IMG/VR virus record: IMGVR_UViG_3300042475_000610
Coordinates: 1 to 22,565 of that record
Length of the DNA: 22,565 nucleotides
Strand: one strand, 5' to 3'
DNA from: a virus
The first letter of the stretch is position 1, and each line of letters opens with the position of its first letter. The position numbers and the translations under genes were made by a program. Shown here piece by piece: positions 59-18,311 of the stretch. The notes under the pieces were generated by a model. It worked only from the letters and a program-made list of their open reading frames with translations, did not search any database and was not told the DNA's origin.

Positions 59-711
59 CACAAAAACCAATTGCATACATCAATGTCGAAAAGCGCACAC
101 TGGAATTTGCAGAACCGATCAAATGGCATACGCCTACTGTTGCAAATCTAGATCGAATTCCATTGTTCACCAAAGAAGCCTTGGCACAGCCAGAGCAAGA
201 GCCTGTGGCGTGGATGCACGTTCAAGGCAATTACAAAGAACCATCATTTCGTGAATTGGCTGATGATGAAGTTGAACGTGGTTGGGAACAGTACCCGTTA
301 TACAACACCCCACCACAGCGCACAGAGCAAGAGCCTGTGATTGGCAAATGGAGTTTGCGTGAAGTGTATTTTGATGAAGATGGAGAGCCAATAAGCCACA
401 GAAGCCCACCACAGCGCACAGAGCCTGTGGCGCATTGGTCAGATTGTGCTGTACATAGCGAGCCAGCATACCCAAAAGGTGAGTGTGATTGCGGTGGAAT
501 TGTTGCAGTCGCTGATTACACGGCACTATCCGACAAGTATGTTGCTTTATCCGACAAGTATGTTGCTTTGAAAGCACAGCGCACATGGGTGGGGCTGACA
601 AACAACGAACTCCAACCAATTGCTGACGAATATCGCATTTTGTTTGGTAGTTGGGTAGAAGACTTTGCCAGAGCCATTGAAGCCAAACTCAGGAGTAAAA
701 ATGGATATTGA
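55..711 (+). CDS. Repetitive phage hypothetical protein with EQEPV / PPQRTE modules
   Basis: This 218-residue protein has no recognisable enzyme domain. It is built from short modules: 'EQEPVAW' near residue 48, 'YNTPPQRTEQEPV' near 84-95, 'PPQRTEPVAHW' near 118-128, then a tandem 'SDKYVAL' pair near 158-172, and a more conserved C-terminus (WVGLT...FARAIEAKL). Proteins with such modules recur in phage genomes as uncharacterised genes; that is from memory of the family, not a search. The start is the ATG at 55, preceded by AGGAAA at 41-46 and overlapping the upstream stop. Its own stop overlaps the start of the HNH gene by 11 nt. The repeats suggest growth by internal duplication. Function unknown. 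Confidence 0.75.
   Translation: MTQKPIAYINVEKRTLEFAEPIKWHTPTVANLDRIPLFTKEALAQPEQEPVAWMHVQGNYKEPSFRELADDEVERGWEQYPLYNTPPQRTEQEPVIGKWSLREVYFDEDGEPISHRSPPQRTEPVAHWSDCAVHSEPAYPKGECDCGGIVAVADYTALSDKYVALSDKYVALKAQRTWVGLTNNELQPIADEYRILFGSWVEDFARAIEAKLRSKNGY
309..423 (+). repeat. Dispersed 19-nt direct repeat inside the 218-residue protein gene
   Basis: The 19-nt sequence cccaccacagcgcacagag occurs identically at 309-327 and 405-423. A second overlapping repeat, cagagcaagagcctgtg, is identical at 191-207 and 323-339. Both encode the PPQRTE and EQEPV modules in the same frame, so they are coding repeats produced by duplication. Confidence 0.85.
527..569 (+). repeat. 21-nt perfect tandem duplication (SDKYVAL twice)
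   Basis: The unit tatccgacaagtatgttgctt is present twice head to tail at 527-547 and 548-568 with no mismatch, plus one further matching base. It is in frame and adds seven residues to the encoded protein, which fits a recent slippage or unequal recombination event. Confidence 0.9.
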
Positions 712-1177
712 ATTACAACTTGCAGAAGTGTTGCGTTATGAGCCTCTAACTGGTTTATTATTTTGGACTGATAAAGCTCATAAATCTGTTAAGAACAAAC
801 AAGCAGGCACACCAAATCATCTTGGTTACATCATTGTGTTGTTTAAAAGTAAACCATATAAAGCACATCGATTGGCTTGGTTTTTGGCGTATGGCTCATG
901 GCCTAGTCAAATGATTGACCATATTGATGGCAACACATCCAATAATGCGTTGACAAATTTAAGAGATGTAGACAACAAAACAAACCAATGCAATCGTCAT
1001 AAAGCAAGAATTGATAGTAAATCTGGTTTGATGGGCGCATCACCCTATCGAAATAAATGGAGAGCACAAATTACACGTAATGGAACAATCAAATATCTTG
1101 GACTTTTTGATACGGCACAAGAAGCGCATGAGGCTTATAAAGAGCAAAAGAACGGCTTTGCCGAGGAGAACACTTGA
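701..1177 (+). CDS. HNH homing endonuclease with C-terminal AP2 DNA-binding domain
   Basis: The 158-residue protein has the HNH_3-type layout: H56 in 'KAHRLAW', the core 'IDHIDGN' at 72-78 with H74, and asparagines in 'NNALTNLR' at 81-88. An AP2-like segment follows at about 107-147 ('SGLMGASPYRNKWRAQITR', then 'KYLGLFDTAQEAHEAY'). Such freestanding endonucleases cut DNA at specific sites and spread their own genes among phages. I chose the ATG at 701 over an in-frame ATG at 665 because an AGGAG at 691-695 lies correctly before it and the family's N-terminal pattern (LxYxPxTGLxFW) starts there. It overlaps the upstream stop by 11 nt. It is similar in plan to the endonuclease at 3687-4151. Confidence 0.9.
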   Translation: MDIELQLAEVLRYEPLTGLLFWTDKAHKSVKNKQAGTPNHLGYIIVLFKSKPYKAHRLAWFLAYGSWPSQMIDHIDGNTSNNALTNLRDVDNKTNQCNRHKARIDSKSGLMGASPYRNKWRAQITRNGTIKYLGLFDTAQEAHEAYKEQKNGFAEENT

Positions 1178-3463: not shown

Positions 3464-3694
3464 TCAATTCTTACCCATCCAGTGGCTTACATAGCCCACA
3501 GCAGAAGACAAAGCTGATACCAAGGCCATACCCGCCCAGAACCCGCCACGCCCTTGATTTGCCAGTGCCACTAGCTTTTCAATGGAAGATTCCATTTTGT
3601 CAATCTTGGTTTCCATCTGGTCGAATCGGCGTTCATAGTCCTGAACCTTTTGCCAAAGTACACCATATTTAACTAAATCAATTTTTTCATCCAT
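3464..3694 (-). CDS. XhlA-like small coiled-coil membrane protein
   Basis: The 76-residue protein has a heptad-like N-terminal half ('DYERRFDQMETKIDKMESS') and a C-terminal hydrophobic span (FWAGMALVSALSSAVGYV). This size and layout match the XhlA haemolysin / phage holin-partner group: cytoplasmic coiled coil followed by one membrane helix. I take the ATG at 3694 because the predicted conserved part starts there and it overlaps the end of the HNH gene by 8 nt; earlier in-frame ATGs at 3751, 3712 and 3703 would put the N-terminus inside the HNH gene. No strong Shine-Dalgarno is seen. It opens the lysis cassette. The family assignment rests on topology only. Confidence 0.65.
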   Translation of the reverse strand: MDEKIDLVKYGVLWQKVQDYERRFDQMETKIDKMESSIEKLVALANQGRGGFWAGMALVSALSSAVGYVSHWMGKN

Positions 3695-4151
3695 GATTTG
3701 CATAAACCCCATGAAATTTATCTCTTGCAACTTGCATAACCAATTCAGCAAGTTCTAAATCTTCAAAACTACCTAAAACAATTCTTTTGCCATTTACTGC
3801 AATTCGCGCTTCAAATTTATTGTTATCTGGTCGAATACGAATTCCTTTAATACCGGTTTTATTGTTTGCACTAATTTTTCTATTCCATTGATTTTGAATA
3901 CGATTGACCATTCGCAAATTTTCAATACGATTGTTTGATCTATCTCCATCGATGTGATCAATAAATCCATTAATTTTTTTATTGTGATACAACCAAACAA
4001 GACGATGAGCCATGATGTTTTTGTTGTTAATTTCAATAACTGTATATCCAGTAGGTTTCAAAGAACCTGCTTTTTTGCATTTATTCTTCCAAATAAGATC
4101 ACCATCTTTATATTCAAATAAAGATTGCACAGTTTCTTGATCAATTTCCAT
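3687..4151 (-). CDS. HNH homing endonuclease with AP2 domain
   Basis: The 154-residue protein has H49 in 'MAHRLVWLY', the core 'IDHIDGDRSNNRIENLR' at 64-80 (H66, N74, N78), then an AP2-like domain at about 98-145 ('GIKGIRIRPDNNKFEARI', 'LGSFEDLELAELV'). It begins 2 nt after the stop of the tail-collar gene and its stop overlaps the first lysis gene, so it fits seamlessly between virion and lysis genes. Hand count of 3901-4080 gives 57 G+C of 180 (32 percent) against 60 of 120 (50 percent) in two lines of the adjacent collar gene, which supports horizontal origin. Confidence 0.9.
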   Translation of the reverse strand: MEIDQETVQSLFEYKDGDLIWKNKCKKAGSLKPTGYTVIEINNKNIMAHRLVWLYHNKKINGFIDHIDGDRSNNRIENLRMVNRIQNQWNRKISANNKTGIKGIRIRPDNNKFEARIAVNGKRIVLGSFEDLELAELVMQVARDKFHGVYANHG

Positions 4152-10367: not shown

Positions 10368-10588
10368 TGGTCGTAATATGGCACTTTGTAAGCCACACCA
10401 TTAACGGTTACATTCATAAAGCCAACAGGGTTAGCAGGCAATGTTGCCGATCCCGCAGTCGCTGTGCTGGCGCTAGTGAAGTTCAACAAGTTAATAAAGA
10501 ACTGCTGCCATGCCCGTGTGGGCCTTTTGGTCTGCCCATCCAAAAACTCTGATTGCGGATATGGCTGGCTTTGTGGTGTTGGCAACAT
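10364..10588 (-). CDS. Small phage protein between gp10-like and cupin-like genes
   Basis: The 74-residue protein contains 'RPTRAWQQFFINLLN' (22-36), an Ala/Thr/Ser-rich linker and a conserved C-terminal beta segment 'PVGFMNVTVNGVAYKVPYY' (54-72). I know this C-terminal pattern from many small phage virion-cluster proteins of unknown function. It is linked on both sides: its ATG overlaps the gp10-like stop in TGATG, and its stop overlaps the next start in ATGA. It occupies the slot of the P22 tail needle gene 26 but is too short and lacks its long coiled coil. Confidence 0.75.
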   Translation of the reverse strand: MLPTPQSQPYPQSEFLDGQTKRPTRAWQQFFINLLNFTSASTATAGSATLPANPVGFMNVTVNGVAYKVPYYDQ

Positions 10589-12858
10589 CAGTTTTCCCCT
10601 ACGCTAGATTTCAGGTTAGCAGAGATGATGACCGCCTTTACAGGGTCAGAAATTGAAACTTCAAACACACGATCCCGCGCTGTACCCAACCGCCGCCAAA
10701 TGGCACGGTTTGCATACTTACCAATCAAGCCAATGGTAGTCCAATGTTCGTTTGACCAAGTAGAACCGCCGTTGTCCGACCACCGCAGCATTGCTTGAGG
10801 GTTTTCCCCTTGTCCTGTGGGCAAACCAACACCGGGCTGGAACTGAATCTGCAATTCATCAAAGTATTCCCGCTGGAAGTCTGCCACCAAATGCGGTGCG
10901 CGGCGCAAACGCCTAACGTGCTGACCATCATCTGTGTAATTTAATTTGTCGAGCTTGTATATCTTGCCGTTGGCGTAATCCCCAACCATTACCAAACCTT
11001 GGAATTCAGCGCAACAATTTCCCCTTGCGCGTTCATACTGGCCTAAATTGTTTGTATACAACCACTTATGCCACATTCCTGAAGCAATGTCATAAGCCCA
11101 AGTTAGGTTAATTGATGGGAAGCTGATAACGTAAACTTCGTGGCCTTCAAGCTGATAAGTCCATGCAACAGCATCGCTAATCACTTGATTTGTCAAAGAA
11201 TTTTCAACCGCATGGGTGGAAATCCTTGTGGGAACATAGCCATTCATTTGCACAATTTGGGCTTGCCCTCTAATGTTTCTGCTTAAATATGCAAAGGAAT
11301 TGCCAAGCCGCGCTACGCTAAATGCGGCTGCAATGCCGTGCTGGGTAGATGTGCCGGGGATTCGCTGGAACGGGAAAGGGCTTGTGCCTGCATCAATCCA
11401 CACCTCGCTAGAAACCTCACCCAGCAAATAAACTTCACGGTGGTCAACAATCAATGCAACCAAGTCATCAGGCGCACCGTCTTTGCTACCAAAACTCAAC
11501 GCAGGCGAAATAGGCGACAAAGCCGCAGATGCACCAAACTGCTGAGTATCTGGGCGGTTGTATACAAAGTAGTTGTCCACAATGTCAACAGAAGTGGCGC
11601 TCGTGAATGCCCCGTCAGTGCTAGGCAAAACCGACCAATTCAAACCATACATGGTCTGACCAGCAGAAGTGTTCATGGTAGTTGATGCAACGGTTTGCGA
11701 TGCGCTTACAGTGTAGCTTTGACCGTTAATAGCGGTGGATGCTGTTGCTGTGGTTTGTGTGGTATTCCATGTACTACCACTTCCGCTACCACTGATGTTT
11801 GATATGATGCGAGTCCCTGCCACGACGTTTGTGCCAGTTAAGACTTGACCAACAGAAATTGTGCCAGCAGTTAATGTGCCAATTGTCAAAACCCCAGTGC
11901 TTACAGTAATTGTTGAACCTGTGGACGTAAAAGTGTTTGAAGCTGTTATGGTGGTGGCTGGGGTTACGCCAGTGCCATAAAGGTATGCGCCAACATTAAT
12001 TGTTCCGCTAGTAACAGATGTTGCACTTAATACAGTGCCAGCAACTTGACCTGTAAAGGTTGCGCCAACTGCGGGAACATTTTGCGATGCGTTAACTGTA
12101 TAAGTGCCTATTCCACCTGTTCCAGTTCCCAAAGCAGTGATAATTGTGTCAGCAGTAACACCTGAACCCTGAATGGTTTGCCCTGCATACAAAGTACCTG
12201 TGACAGTGTTTGCATACAAAGTTGTTCCAACAATCTGCCCATTTATGACCGCACCAACAGATGCTGAATTTAGCAACCCACTTACCACAGCTTGACTTTG
12301 GTTAACAGTGTAAGTACCAACCCCGCCAGTTCCAGTACCCAAGGCCGTAATGACCGTTGCTTGCGTTACGCCTACACCAAACAACGCCTGATCGATGGCA
12401 ATTGTTCCATTTGTGATTGCGGTGACTGTTAAGGTTGTGCCGCTGATTGAACCAGTGAAAACCGCAGCAGATGGGCTAGAAATGCGCCATGTGTACCGAT
12501 TTTGACCGTCAACAATATACACATTTACACCGTTGTCAGTGATGCCCACAATGCCCGTAGAAGTGGTTAATTGACCCACCATTGTAGTGGTGTAGATGGA
12601 AGTTAAAGCGTAAACATACGGGCCACAAACCGCCACAAGAATGTCGCCGCCTGACAGGGTACGCATTCCCCTGACTTCTTCTTGATTCTGAAAAAGCACC
12701 AATGAAGTCAGTCCCGGCGTTGGGTACAGCGCCACCACCCCGCGTTCACCTTGTTGCTTCAGCGGATCAATTTCAGGAACAAAATTGATGCACTCTTGGG
12801 CATCTTGGTAAATGCTGGGCGCTTCGTAAGATGGGCCAACAAAGCCAAAATCTGCCAT
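10588..12858 (-). CDS. P22 gp10-like tail accessory / packaged-DNA stabilisation protein with inserted beta repeats
   Basis: The N-terminus ('[11 protein letters not shown]', '[12 protein letters not shown]', '[13 protein letters not shown]') and C-terminal half ('[15 protein letters not shown]', '[18 protein letters not shown]', '[13 protein letters not shown]') match the phage stabilisation family of P22 gp10, the hub that seals the portal and carries the tail spike. P22 gp10 is about 470 residues; this one is 756. The excess is a Thr/Gly/Val-rich block at residues 131-398 made of about four repeats of a '[12 protein letters not shown]...[12 protein letters not shown]' unit. The ATG at 12858 overlaps the HNH stop (TAATG), so translation may be coupled to that gene. 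Confidence 0.88.
11665..12468 (-). repeat. Repeat-module insertion (about 268 residues) in the gp10-like gene
   Basis: This in-frame block encodes about four degenerate copies of a 60-70-residue beta-rich unit. Best copies: residues 133-190 ('[12 protein letters not shown]' to '[12 protein letters not shown]') and 205-255 ('[11 protein letters not shown]' to '[12 protein letters not shown]'); two weaker ones follow, ending in '[14 protein letters not shown]'. At DNA level the segments near 12110-12135 and 12317-12347 are nearly the same. Confidence 0.8.
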
Positions 12859-13343
12859 TAGGATTTTCTCCTAATCAGTGATTTGATAGTTGATTTGTTT
12901 GCATTCATTTTTTTTGCAATCATGCTCATGGTTAATCCATTTTGACGCAAATCCATGATTTCTTCAATTTGCTGATTGGTAAAAACAGAACGATGATGAT
13001 CGCCGCCAACTTTATGTTTTACTCTGCCTTTTTGATGCATATCCAAATTGTTTTCTCGCAAAGTTGCTATTTGCAAATGATTTGGATTGCAACAAATACG
13101 ATTGTCGCAAAGATGCATTAAAAAGCCTTTTGCTTTTTTATTGGTTGGCGCTTTTAATTCAATCATGTCTGGATTTGCTAAATTAAAAATAACTCTATGG
13201 GCGTAATAACCTTTGTCATTAATCCAAGTTCGCCCATATCCATTTTCAATTGATCCCTTCCAAGGCCAACATTCATTTTTACTTTTAACATCAACTTTAC
13301 TCCACAACACTTCTGGCGTGTTTTGAGGTTTTCCAGCTTTCAT
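12858..13343 (-). CDS. HNH homing endonuclease with C-terminal helix-turn-helix
   Basis: The 161-residue protein has 'YYAHRVIF' (H49) and the nuclease core '[15 protein letters not shown]' at 76-90 (H77, N81, N86, H89, with C79, C84 and C85 as likely zinc ligands), then a C-terminal segment 119-160 ('[20 protein letters not shown]') that reads as a DNA-binding helix-turn-helix. AAGGA precedes the ATG. It separates two tail genes that are normally adjacent (gp4-like and gp10-like), and its TAA shares a base with the gp10-like ATG. Counted GC is 38 of 120 (32 percent) at 13081-13200 against 34 of 60 (57 percent) at 13561-13620 in the neighbour gene, fitting a recent mobile insertion. Confidence 0.9.
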
Positions 13344-13385
13344 GGCAATTCCTTTTTAAAACCACCATTCTAACTGTTTTATAAA

Positions 13386-14360
13386 TCATCGGAAGCCGCC
13401 GTCCATGATAAAGCCAGCGTCTTTAGCCCGTCCGACCATCAAGGCATCAGGATAACGGGACACTTGTGCTGGGCGCATATTGGTGCGCTTAATCGTGGCT
13501 TTTGCTTGACCAGCAAAGGCGTTAATCATTTGAATCTGGGTAGCTGAAGCCTTGCCATACATAGGCATCATGCGTTCAGCTAAGCACCACCGCAACGCCA
13601 TGTTGTAGCCCTGTGGCAGCGCGATTGTGTCGTACAAAGAACCAAATGTGCGGAAAATCGTGCTGGTAAATAAGTGAAGCTCGCCAGACGACGGGTTAGG
13701 AAAGACATACAACGTTCCCAAATTTTCGCTGGGTTGGTAGTAAATCATCTTTGCCCACGGGCCGTTCAATTGTTTGATGCCCAAGGATTGGTATTCTTCC
13801 AAACTCAGGATTGCCACGGGGTAATCCAAATAACCACCAGCTATATTTGAGCCGCCTTGCTGCGTAGCTACGCGAACAAACGCTGATTCAATGGTCAAAG
13901 GGCGTTCATAGTAGGCAGTGATTGTGGTGCTTGCCACGGTCTGGGAAACGCTGACAGTGTATGTACCGCCCTCATTGACGTTACCACCAGCGCCAGTGCC
14001 AAAGCCCACAATGGTTGTGCCTGCGGCAATGCCTGCGCCAGTAATGGTCATGCCCATTGTGATAGCGCCAGAAATTACGCCATTCACAGGAACGGTCAGG
14101 GTTGTGCCTGCAATTGAACCTGTAAAAGATGCGCCCACCGACCCAGACGGGCCAAGGGTATATTGCACGGTATTTTGAACAGTCTGGAAGATAATTTCGG
14201 TCTTGTAGAAAACCATCATGTTTTCATTCGACCACTGGGCGCACATATCGTTTAGCAGATCAAATGCGTCTTGGGCATCATCTGCTGATGGCGATTCGCC
14301 AGCCGCTAATGCACCAATATCTTTAAGCGCCCTGCTGATAATGTCGTAAGGAGTCGTCAT
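13386..14360 (-). CDS. P22 gp4-like tail accessory / head-completion protein with inserted beta module
   Basis: The N-terminal 70 residues ('TPYDIISRALKDIGALAAGE', 'ALDAFDLLNDM'-type helix 'DAFDLLNDMCAQWSNENMM') and the C-terminal half ('PLTIESAFVRVA', 'YNMALRWCLAERMMPMYGK') match the gp4-like family that binds the portal after packaging and connects it to gp10. P22 gp4 is about 166 residues; this one has 324, partly through a 75-residue insertion at 75-149 of the same beta-rich unit found in the gp10-like protein. AGGTG precedes the ATG, which follows the upstream TAATAA directly. Confidence 0.82.
   Translation of the reverse strand: MTTPYDIISRALKDIGALAAGESPSADDAQDAFDLLNDMCAQWSNENMMVFYKTEIIFQTVQNTVQYTLGPSGSVGASFTGSIAGTTLTVPVNGVISGAITMGMTITGAGIAAGTTIVGFGTGAGGNVNEGGTYTVSVSQTVASTTITAYYERPLTIESAFVRVATQQGGSNIAGGYLDYPVAILSLEEYQSLGIKQLNGPWAKMIYYQPSENLGTLYVFPNPSSGELHLFTSTIFRTFGSLYDTIALPQGYNMALRWCLAERMMPMYGKASATQIQMINAFAGQAKATIKRTNMRPAQVSRYPDALMVGRAKDAGFIMDGGFR
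13914..14138 (-). repeat. Single copy of the shared beta-repeat module in the gp4-like gene
   Basis: Residues 75-149 read 'FTGSIAGTTLTVPV' through 'GTGAGGNVNEGGTYTVSVSQ' to 'TVASTTITA'. This is the same pattern as the units at 11665-12468 in the gp10-like gene, including the identical 'SQTVASTT' ending. The flanking host-protein sequence resumes at once ('YYERPLTIESAF'). Confidence 0.8.
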
Positions 14361-15038: not shown

Positions 15039-18000
15039 TTATCTAAGTTCTGCCCAATATTGAATCGTAGTTCCACTATTACTGTTTGTGATTGAATAAG
15101 TGCTACTTGGAGGGACAATTCCCATATTAGTGACATTATGAGGAGTAACGAGTGATGCAGTGTAATAATCATTATCTTTAAAAGCTGAGACGATAATGCC
15201 ATCAATAGTAAGTCTTGCAACATTATTACCAACACCCGAATTTGAAGTTACTTGCACTTGAATAGGTTTACCAGTAGTATTTGTATAAGTTGTACCAACA
15301 GCCCTACTACTAGCTACATTTTGCCAAGTCTGCCCATACCCCAAGCTACTCATAGCCGTCATCGCTTGCCCGCCCACACCTTGAATCGTGCTAGGTGCAG
15401 TTACCCACGTCCCTGCCGTTGCCTGAGTAGACTGAATAAAACCAATTACACGATAAGCCAAAGATGTACGAGCAGTGGTTGAATACACTACGGTTGCGCT
15501 GTCTGCACCGCCAGAACCACCTTCAGCAGTGGTAGAAATCAAGTTAGTTTCATCAAGCTGTGTGCCGCCAGAAATGTTGACCGCCGCCAGTTCAATCGTT
15601 CCAGCGTTGTTGAGGGCAATGACCACAATACGCGAAGCAACGTTGTTTACCGTTCCAAGGGTTGATCCGCTTGAAATGACCAAGTTGGCGGGTGTTCCAG
15701 AGACAGTCGTAACAGTACCGCTACCCAAAGTGACTGAACGAAAATCCAAACTCAATGGAGAGGCAGAAATTGTCAATGCGTTGGCTGCAACAGAAGCGGA
15801 AATTGAAAATACTTTAGAAAAAGCATTTTTGAATATCGCATTACCGATGGAGTCAAGTCGCATAGATTCCACACCACCTTCAGAAAAAGCAATGGTGTCA
15901 GCGGCAGGGAAGAAGATACCTGTGTTTGTGTCACCAGATGTAGTAATAGCAGGTAGTGAAACTGTTCCAGCTTGAACAGTGGTAACGCCTGTAGCAGATA
16001 AAGTGGTAAATGCCCCTGTATTTGCCGTAGTTGCGCCAATAGTGCCATTAAAAGCACCAGAAAATCCAGTCGCCGCCAATATTCCAGTAGATGGATTAAA
16101 TGTTAGCTTAGTGCTAGAAACATTTTCAGAAGTAATTGTTCCTGTCGTTGCGCTTGTAAATGTCAAATATCTGGTTGCATTTGTTGTTGTATCGTCAACA
16201 ATGGTTAATCCACCAGAACCAGCCACCCAAGCAAATGCCGATCCATCCCATGTTAATGCTGTGTTTGAAACAGTTGGCGCAACAATAAATGAAGTCGCGC
16301 CAGCACCTGTTTGGAAAGGAATCTGGTTAGCTGTACCGCCTGCAATATTGGTTGCCGTAGTTGCACTTGTTGCAGTCGCCGCATTCCCACCAATTGACAA
16401 ACTGGTTGCTGTCCCTGTCAGGCCCGTACCCGCACCACTGAATGATGTAGATGTAAAAACGCCAGTGGAGGGATTGAATTGCAGCTTTGTGGAACTGACA
16501 AACTCAGTGGTTAGGTTGCCCGTGGTCTGATCAGCATACAGCGGGTATCGCGTTGCATTGGTGGTTGTGTCATCAGTGACGGTGGCGTAACTTGATGGAG
16601 TTACCCATGTGGGTGCGCTTGAACCATTGGATTGAAGAACTTGACCATTTGTGCCTGTTGACCCATTAACAGCCAATGTGCTTGTCAGTGATAAGGTTGT
16701 GAAATATCCAGCGGCAGCAGTTGTTACGCCAATTGAGGTGTTGTCAATTGTTCCCGCGTTAATATCCGCAGTATCAGCAATTAAGCTGTCAATATTGGCA
16801 GTTCCATCAATATACAAATTGCGCCATTCGTGGCCTACACGCCCCAAATCGTAAGTGTTATCAGTTGCAGGGTCAAAGTCTGAATTTATGCGCCCAACAA
16901 AATTGATTGTGTCAGTATTGCTAGTTCCAAAAGTGGAATTGTCATCAACCGTCAGAGTCGTAAATCTACCTGTGTTCGGCGTTGTGTTGCCAATGGTTGG
17001 AGGGCTAGACAGGTCTAAAGTGCCACCTAAAGTAATTGTTCCAGAACTTGTAATTGGCCCACCAGTTAGTGTTAAACCATTAACAGTACCCGCAGTTCCT
17101 ACCGATGTGACCGTTCCTGTGGTTGGTGTTGCCCATGATGGAACGCCTGAAGCCAAGGTCAAAACCTGACCATTTGACCCAGCTGCCAAGAATGTTGTGG
17201 TGCTTGGCGCTGTTTGGTAAGGTAACGATCCTGATGCCCCGCCAGCCAAATTAGTGGCGGTTGTGGCGCTTGTTGCGGTGGTGGCAGTAGCTGCGTTACC
17301 CCCAATGGATAAACCGCTTGCAGTGCCTGTTAGATTCGTTCCAGCGCCGCTGAAATAAGTGTTTGCTGTAACCACTGCGCCAGTGACTGCCGCAGCAGTT
17401 GACCCGCCAATGGTTGTGCCATCAATTGTGCCGCCCGTAATTGCTACCGCATTGGCATTTTGGGTGGACATTGTGCCAAGCCCAGAAACTTGCGTATTTG
17501 CAATTGCAATTGGGGTGTTGGTGACTGAACTAACCTGACCTGATGCGTTGGTGACAAACACAGGTACAGCAGATGCAGAACCATATGTTCCAGCAGTTCC
17601 CACAGGGGTGATGCTAAACACATAGTTGGTTAGTGTTAACCCTGTGCCAGCAGAATAAATTGCAGTATTGGCAAACCGCACAAAGGTAATGGCAGTGACC
17701 CCAAGAGTCCCGCCCGGCAAATTGGTATCCACCCATGCAGACCCTGCCAACGTCACGCCATCCAGTACAAACAGGTAAGCAGACAGCAATTCATCATAGG
17801 TATTGGCATCAAGGGATCGAGTCCAAGCGCCAGCCGCAGCCAAATAAATACCGTTGTCAGCACCCGCTGTTTGGTCTTTTACCAATATGCGGTTTCCCGC
17901 AGTTAAAGTTACATTCCAATCGCCACCAGCTTGTACCGCCAAGCCAGACAGCGTGATATTGCCTGTGGTAGTGAAGTTTGCTGGCGCTTTGAACGCCAAA

Positions 18001-18311
18001 CCTTGGGCAATTGCGTCCACATAGGCTTGATTTACTATGGAAGTCGGGCCAGATGGAACGCTTGAAATTGTGCCTGTGGTTGTGGCAATATCGGTGAAAA
18101 CCCCAGTAGACGGGGTAATTGCTCCAATTGTGGTGCTGTTTATTGTGCTATTGGTGATGTTTAAGCCTGATTGATTTGGATCAATCTTGGCGTAAAAAGG
18201 CGTACCCGCTGGCCCAATCAGCGTGATCAAATCGAATGTCGGTTCAGGCTGGAATATGCCCTGAACTGGGACAATGTTTATGGTTTGGGTTTTGGCGGCT
18301 TCATTTGCCAT
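15039..18311 (-). CDS. Large fibre-like virion protein (1090 residues) with internal repeats
   Basis: The protein is Thr/Ser/Gly/Ala rich and beta-repetitive. Residues 1-60 include 'IGPAGTPFYAKIDPNQSG'; about 95-210 hold a domain known from phage fibre proteins ('APANFTTTGNITL', 'VKDQTAGADNGIYLA', 'GSAWVDTNLPGG'). The middle contains many units of 'SGAGTGLTGTA.SLSIGGNAATAT' and 'STGVFT / NTGAFTTL' types, like trimeric shaft repeats. The last 95 residues ('YTNTTGKPIQVQVTS', 'IVPPSSTYSI', 'YWAELR') form a compact domain that ends many phage fibres. It is probably a receptor-binding fibre or a long head/neck fibre. AAGGG precedes the ATG. Its place between the capsid genes and the gp4-like gene differs from P22. 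Confidence 0.75.
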   Translation of the reverse strand: MANEAAKTQTINIVPVQGIFQPEPTFDLITLIGPAGTPFYAKIDPNQSGLNITNSTINSTTIGAITPSTGVFTDIATTTGTISSVPSGPTSIVNQAYVDAIAQGLAFKAPANFTTTGNITLSGLAVQAGGDWNVTLTAGNRILVKDQTAGADNGIYLAAAGAWTRSLDANTYDELLSAYLFVLDGVTLAGSAWVDTNLPGGTLGVTAITFVRFANTAIYSAGTGLTLTNYVFSITPVGTAGTYGSASAVPVFVTNASGQVSSVTNTPIAIANTQVSGLGTMSTQNANAVAITGGTIDGTTIGGSTAAAVTGAVVTANTYFSGAGTNLTGTASGLSIGGNAATATTATSATTATNLAGGASGSLPYQTAPSTTTFLAAGSNGQVLTLASGVPSWATPTTGTVTSVGTAGTVNGLTLTGGPITSSGTITLGGTLDLSSPPTIGNTTPNTGRFTTLTVDDNSTFGTSNTDTINFVGRINSDFDPATDNTYDLGRVGHEWRNLYIDGTANIDSLIADTADINAGTIDNTSIGVTTAAAGYFTTLSLTSTLAVNGSTGTNGQVLQSNGSSAPTWVTPSSYATVTDDTTTNATRYPLYADQTTGNLTTEFVSSTKLQFNPSTGVFTSTSFSGAGTGLTGTATSLSIGGNAATATSATTATNIAGGTANQIPFQTGAGATSFIVAPTVSNTALTWDGSAFAWVAGSGGLTIVDDTTTNATRYLTFTSATTGTITSENVSSTKLTFNPSTGILAATGFSGAFNGTIGATTANTGAFTTLSATGVTTVQAGTVSLPAITTSGDTNTGIFFPAADTIAFSEGGVESMRLDSIGNAIFKNAFSKVFSISASVAANALTISASPLSLDFRSVTLGSGTVTTVSGTPANLVISSGSTLGTVNNVASRIVVIALNNAGTIELAAVNISGGTQLDETNLISTTAEGGSGGADSATVVYSTTARTSLAYRVIGFIQSTQATAGTWVTAPSTIQGVGGQAMTAMSSLGYGQTWQNVASSRAVGTTYTNTTGKPIQVQVTSNSGVGNNVARLTIDGIIVSAFKDNDYYTASLVTPHNVTNMGIVPPSSTYSITNSNSGTTIQYWAELR
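16084..16584 (-). repeat. Segmental duplication in the fibre gene (about 120 nt, 378 nt apart)
   Basis: The segments 16084-16206 and 16462-16584 align in register with a constant offset of 378 nt (126 codons). They encode 'DDTTTNATRY' through 'VSSTKLxFNPSTG'. Sequence between them and at 17251-17333 also shares a second unit ('SIGGNAATAT'), so the fibre grew by repeated internal duplication. Confidence 0.75.

Follow-up and report, generated by a model that had tools for sequence, protein, structure and literature searches.

A small all-beta module, probably a promiscuous decoration domain, inserted in the gp4-like and gp10-like neck proteins of a P22-like podophage

In the DNA analysed here, a virus-derived stretch of 22,565 bases which is called the window below, the genes of two neighbouring tail proteins contain what looks like the same beta-repeat unit, once in a gp4-like protein and several times in a gp10-like protein. 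Such an arrangement raises the question of whether the copies are related, whether they belong to the folds of their carriers or were added to them, whether they passed from one gene to the other, and what they could do on the virus particle. The carriers and the module copies are located as follows, with positions counted in the window.

13386-14360, minus strand: gp4-like head-tail adaptor, 324 aa, with one module (PF24175 SU10_adaptor; phrog_637 head-tail adaptor Ad3)
13905-14132, minus strand: module of the gp4-like protein, residues 77-152, between YTLGPSG and ..YERPLTI (HMM 70 bits)
10588-12858, minus strand: gp10-like packaged-DNA stabilisation / head closure protein Hc3, 756 aa, with four modules (phrog_578)
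11644-12477, minus strand: whole insert of the gp10-like protein, residues 128-405, replacing the hairpin turn WxxSTNTFxxLPSTDG (51-homologue alignment)
12253-12465, minus strand: gp10 module 1, residues 132-202 (HMM 89.7 bits)
12067-12252, minus strand: gp10 module 2, residues 203-264 (HMM 67.8 bits)
11908-12063, minus strand: gp10 module 3, residues 266-317, truncated (HMM 50.6 bits)
11656-11907, minus strand: gp10 module 4, residues 318-401, with a divergent start and an internal insertion (HMM 32.6 bits)

Both carriers could be assigned to known families. The gp10-like protein matches phrog_578 (head closure Hc3) at E=4e-99 in the PHROGs profile search, and this similarity over the full core places it among the P22 gp10-like / Hc3 proteins. 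The gp4-like protein scores 28.7 bits against PF24175 in Pfam (cut-off 27), and its model finds podophage adaptors at prob 1.00 in Foldseek, so that by profile and by adaptor fold it belongs to the P22 gp4 / SU10-type adaptors. The P22 tail accessory proteins gp4 and gp10 are homologous to the carriers here: gp10 homologues without the insert match P22 gp10 (8tvr_S, E=4e-20) and the Pam1 needle-head protein (7eeq_1, E=2e-45), and module-free gp4 homologues match P22 gp4 through the gp4 helices (E=3e-7). Unlike the carriers, P22 gp4 and gp10 have no modules; in P22 gp4, most of the beta domain that houses the insertion site of the gp4-like protein is missing as well. The two carriers are not homologous to each other, as the original prediction had said, because no ORF was found that matches both the gp4 and the gp10 core families.

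Exactly between the two genes lies an HNH homing-type endonuclease gene (12858-13343, minus strand; PF05551, phrog_1872); in most relatives no gene separates gp4 from gp10. Three further small ORFs of the window (665-1177 on the plus strand, 1774-2271 and 3687-4151 on the minus strand) look HNH endonuclease-like by eye, and by these calls the fragment seems rich in homing-type genes. Besides, a fibre-like protein of 1090 aa with many short internal repeats is encoded at 15039-18311 (minus strand) and matches phrog_27782 and others.

The module is a beta unit of about 65-75 residues. With the module HMM we found one copy in gp4 and four in gp10, in line with the predicted single unit and "about four" units, and no further copy elsewhere in the window at E<=1e-3; the third gp10 copy is truncated and fused to the divergent fourth. 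The match between gp4 and gp10 is far above chance, because direct BLASTP with composition correction gives E=8e-6, an HMM built from the gp10 modules alone gives the gp4 module of the window 53.1 bits against a maximum of 1.6 bits for 2,000 composition-preserving shuffles of that module, and both proteins share the same part of phrog_21413 (positions 390-466) as a common match (E=4e-25 and 1e-16). Both also match one and the same stretch of phrog_38233 (tail fiber protein). At the level of protein sequence the gp4 and gp10 units prove homologous, and the predicted presence of one module in two adjacent, unrelated tail proteins is upheld. In the DNA, the repeats common to the two genes are only 64-80% identical over 27-36 nt. 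A tblastn search of the phage collection with a single module gave no match, where the low-complexity filter probably masks the module.

To judge from the homologues, the modules are true and clean insertions, integral to neither the gp4 nor the gp10 fold, because relatives of both proteins have empty sites at the same positions. They sit as inserted domains in loops, an arrangement that the original prediction had proposed to look for. Among 119 gp10 homologues, the insert is missing or contains 2, 3, 4 or more units. Homologues with the empty site are 491-493 aa long and have W(V/I)xSTNTFxxLPSTDG, or a sequence near it, at the hairpin turn, where gp10 of the window reads WRISSPS and continues into the insert; P22 and Pam1 gp10 have the empty site too. 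For gp4, the empty site, with YTIGPGG running directly into ..RP, is found in Rhodoferax phage P26218, PAE2, VvAW1, EBPR1, DSL-LC05, MW202557 and MW202573. Generally, gp4 homologues carry no module at 232-241 aa, one at about 322-350 aa and two at about 399-407 aa (the last measured as stop-to-stop ORFs), and in gp4 of Xanthomonas phage PBR31 the same insertion site holds a diverged relative of the module. Nearly all complete gp4 homologues of the clade keep the module (153 carriers), and the complete homologues without it are those of distant cultured phages.

The idea that the insert accounts for the extra length over P22 turned out to be right for gp10, which has 756 aa versus 472 in P22 and 491-493 in the empty-site relatives, but explains only about half of the excess for gp4 (324 aa versus 166 in P22). 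There the module makes up only about 75-80 aa, and the remaining excess is a beta domain that relatives without the module (232-241 aa) have as well. When mapped on the tree of the gp10 core, module presence or absence needs one change, and the three states (0, 2 or multiple units) need five; a single gain of the gp10 insert in this clade, followed by changes in the number of units, is therefore probable.

In gp10 relatives of 700-800 aa (L100:1797-2519, L107:8532-9518 and others), GTGYAVNDTVTVLGGVYG... and SYTNGTY... repeats are nested in the loop of the module, and a domain is thereby inserted within an inserted domain.

Finding the same module in two adjacent genes had led the original prediction to propose gene conversion or shuffling between gp4 and gp10; direct copying between the neighbours was weighed along with this. 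We compared the module identity of gp4-gp10 pairs within and between genomes in 74 genomes, and it turned out to be 48.4% within a genome versus 47.9% between genomes. The within-genome excess is just detectable (0.4835 vs 0.4788, permutation 0.0115), but it amounts to half a percentage point, and shared ancestry alone could give the same. Modules at the same position in orthologues form the class of highest identity (64-78%), and gp4 modules are as near to those of tail-sheath and collar-fibre proteins (0.60) as to those of gp10 (0.56-0.57). Besides, some gp10 relatives with an empty site still have the module in gp4, and no long near-identical DNA tract common to the gp4 and gp10 modules was found. 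Because the tree of the modules, built on 71 columns, is poorly supported, conclusions were drawn from the identity classes only. By these classes, homogenisation of gp4 and gp10 modules within genomes is absent, and spread of the module by conversion or copying between the two neighbours is largely refuted and highly improbable. The HNH gene was also considered as a driver of conversion: most module loci have no intervening gene (gp4-gp10 gap <100 bases), and larger gaps occur in all module states, so it is not required.

Block exchange is visible among the gp10 alleles of related phages and none is visible with gp4, because in the nearest relative of the window by core (L006) the gp10 core is near-identical (97-99%, aa) while the modules differ. 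The gp10 of this relative has two modules, modules 3-4 are absent, and module 2 is only 72% (aa) or 60% (nt) identical to that of the window, whereas gp4 is unchanged, with 100% identity in the core and 96% in the module.

We consider it probable that the module is a promiscuous decoration domain, whose copies in gp4 and gp10 arose without mutual conversion. Phages would insert this small autonomous all-beta domain into hairpin turns of many virion proteins, in the way that Ig-like domains are used; here the gp4-like adaptor would have received one module in a loop, and the gp10-like protein a tandem of four in a single turn. The gp4 and gp10 modules may have been acquired independently, or so anciently that a direct link is no longer visible, and changes in the gp10 array would reflect exchange and expansion among gp10 alleles in related phages rather than conversion with gp4.

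To see which virion proteins carry the unit, as had been proposed, we surveyed module carriers in a sample that is biased by the queries used, and the module was found in at least 12 unrelated virion protein families. Outside gp4 and gp10 there are 70 ORFs with the module, which fall into 25 clusters and include the following carriers.

Tail sheath: DUF3383/phrog_205
Neck terminator: PF23961/phrog_1876
Minor head protein: PF23982/phrog_2122
Baseplate wedge: phrog_6, phrog_438
Collar fibre: phrog_1800; also an Mtd_N fibre
LamG wedge: phrog_13163; also tail phrog_376
Virion proteins: phrog_3287, phrog_10938; also head phrog_1912

The same module is thus used in many unrelated virion proteins and is optional in relatives, which is the mode of use of Ig-like domains. 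Structural matches to the module in BFVD include an HK97 major capsid protein, a tip attachment protein J and a gp10. Neither Pfam nor NCBIfam has a model for the module. The profiles phrog_21413 and phrog_38233 both contain it, at positions of about 390-470 and 550-625, but they are whole-protein clusters, one of them unannotated, in which the module is neither named nor separated.

Twelve loci have the module in two or more ORFs other than gp4 and gp10, and several of these are an adjacent terminator-sized ORF and sheath, so the pattern of the module in neighbouring virion proteins seems to recur in unrelated tails. It is possible, though somewhat doubtful, that an undescribed family was recruited repeatedly into consecutive neck proteins by unrelated tail types, giving a collar of dozens of similar domains with a common putative binding role; examples would be gp4 and gp10 in P22-like podophages, and terminator and sheath in XM1-like myophages, with the minor head protein added in one Rhizobium prophage.

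In a Rhizobium prophage region (L247:577-8874) three proteins have the module, namely the minor head protein, the neck terminator and the tail sheath. A tail protein of 1210 aa (L293:3776-7405), besides carrying the module, matches the model of the eukaryotic E1 FCCH domain (PF16190, E=4e-13). Collagen-like proteins from Indivirus ILV1, a giant virus (BFVD A0A1V0SDM6 and A0A1V0SCQ2), resemble the module in fold, with an identity of about 25%.

For the fold, we used AlphaFold models based on shallow alignments (54 and 18 rows). The module blocks of the gp4 model mostly have pLDDT 83-93, and the gp10 insert was modelled as all beta with mean pLDDT 83.9, the best of five insert models that run down to 58.7. 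The modules form all-beta units in both, and the module is predicted to be a small all-beta autonomous fold. There was no match to an Ig-like family at E<=1 in Pfam or <=0.1 in NCBIfam, and no credible match to the Ig beta-sandwich in Foldseek, where antibody chains appear only at prob 0.01. Sequence searches of the PDB with module profiles gave chance matches only, and the F1-ATPase N-terminal barrel was discarded as a fold relative (Foldseek E >1). According to PMC10684548, which cites Fraser et al. 2006, phage Ig-like domains are likewise small and all-beta, occur in unrelated virion proteins, are present or absent among close relatives, and are probably surface exposed. The module differs from them in not being Ig by sequence or Foldseek, in forming hairpin-turn inserts and tandem arrays, and in having no Pfam or NCBIfam model.

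No virion structure with the modules was found, and we therefore infer their exposure: an outward position on the tail neck is likely. P22 entries in the PDB have 6 gp10 chains (24 in 4 entries) and 12 gp4 chains (60 in 5), so that about 36 modules would surround each tail neck if this P22-like stoichiometry is conserved. The most likely role of the modules would be to decorate the outer face of the neck and to touch, weakly and multivalently, either surfaces of the host or the environment or adjoining parts of the virion. Taken by itself, this weak-contact function is quite possible and is put forward tentatively, and sticking to hosts or surfaces is our first choice over neck cement or a tolerated passenger.

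Selection on the modules bears on these choices. The dN/dS is 0.11 in the gp4 module versus 0.05 in the core, and 0.089 versus 0.055 in two-module gp10; purifying selection acts on the modules at about half the strength seen for the cores. A hypervariable receptor-binding role is disfavoured by module values near 0.1. It could also be that a stable small domain, tolerated in exposed turns, spreads simply as harmless, for which the wide spread in unrelated virion proteins and the variable copy number would speak. We consider such a neutral passenger unlikely, because of purifying selection (dN/dS about 0.1) and because nearly all complete gp4 homologues of the clade have kept their module, although selection for foldability alone could explain part of both.

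Decoration, and likewise a structural role, would fit the nearest solved phage fold, which for both models (the adaptor core aside) is 8eci_1, the gp7 of Arthrobacter phage Bridgette, named Decoration protein; the matches have prob 1.00 and 0.95 and rmsd 3.9 and 3.2, at weak E of 0.018 and 1.2. Bridgette gp7 has a VGxTITxAGIxAGTTI motif similar to the module, but it is a stand-alone capsid protein of 126 aa, whereas the module here is an insert in neck proteins, and the sequence similarity is weak (only 8 bits for the best domain with the module HMM). The cement proteins of Bridgette are dimers which bridge hexons around the penton (PMC13033339). In the same manner as capsid decoration proteins, the modules might clamp neighbours in the virion (gp4-gp10 or neck-spike) and stabilise the pressurised neck, and the clustering of carriers at the neck in two tail types (gp4 and gp10; terminator and sheath in several myophage loci) would fit. 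However, a fixed interface is hard to reconcile with a gp10 copy number that varies between 0 and 4 or more and with the foreign repeats inside some modules, and the constraint on the modules is relaxed relative to the core, so structural cement is rather unlikely.

Some phage adhesion domains are small beta domains on the outside of the tail, as the module would be, and this would suit a specific glycan-binding module. We regard this as very unlikely: searches of Pfam, PHROGs and NCBIfam gave no carbohydrate-binding family for gp4 and gp10, the Foldseek matches listed include neither a lectin nor a carbohydrate-binding fold, and the consensus is rich in Gly/Thr/Ser/Val and nearly without the aromatic residues typical of such sites.

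In conclusion, we hold the modules to be folded, functional surface domains that are dispensable to their carriers. Promiscuous Ig-like domains are the textbook shared add-on domain of phage particles, and the module in connector proteins represents a variation on this theme. If the reading as a decoration domain is true, the module would be a second, sequence-unrelated shared add-on domain, for which databases have no model. Among the viral metagenome contigs searched it is common, and it sits in connector proteins that are usually regarded as invariant plumbing. With a named profile of the module, many repeats labelled "hypothetical" would be explained, and what such decorations do could be compared directly between natural gp10 alleles of 0, 2 or 4 units.
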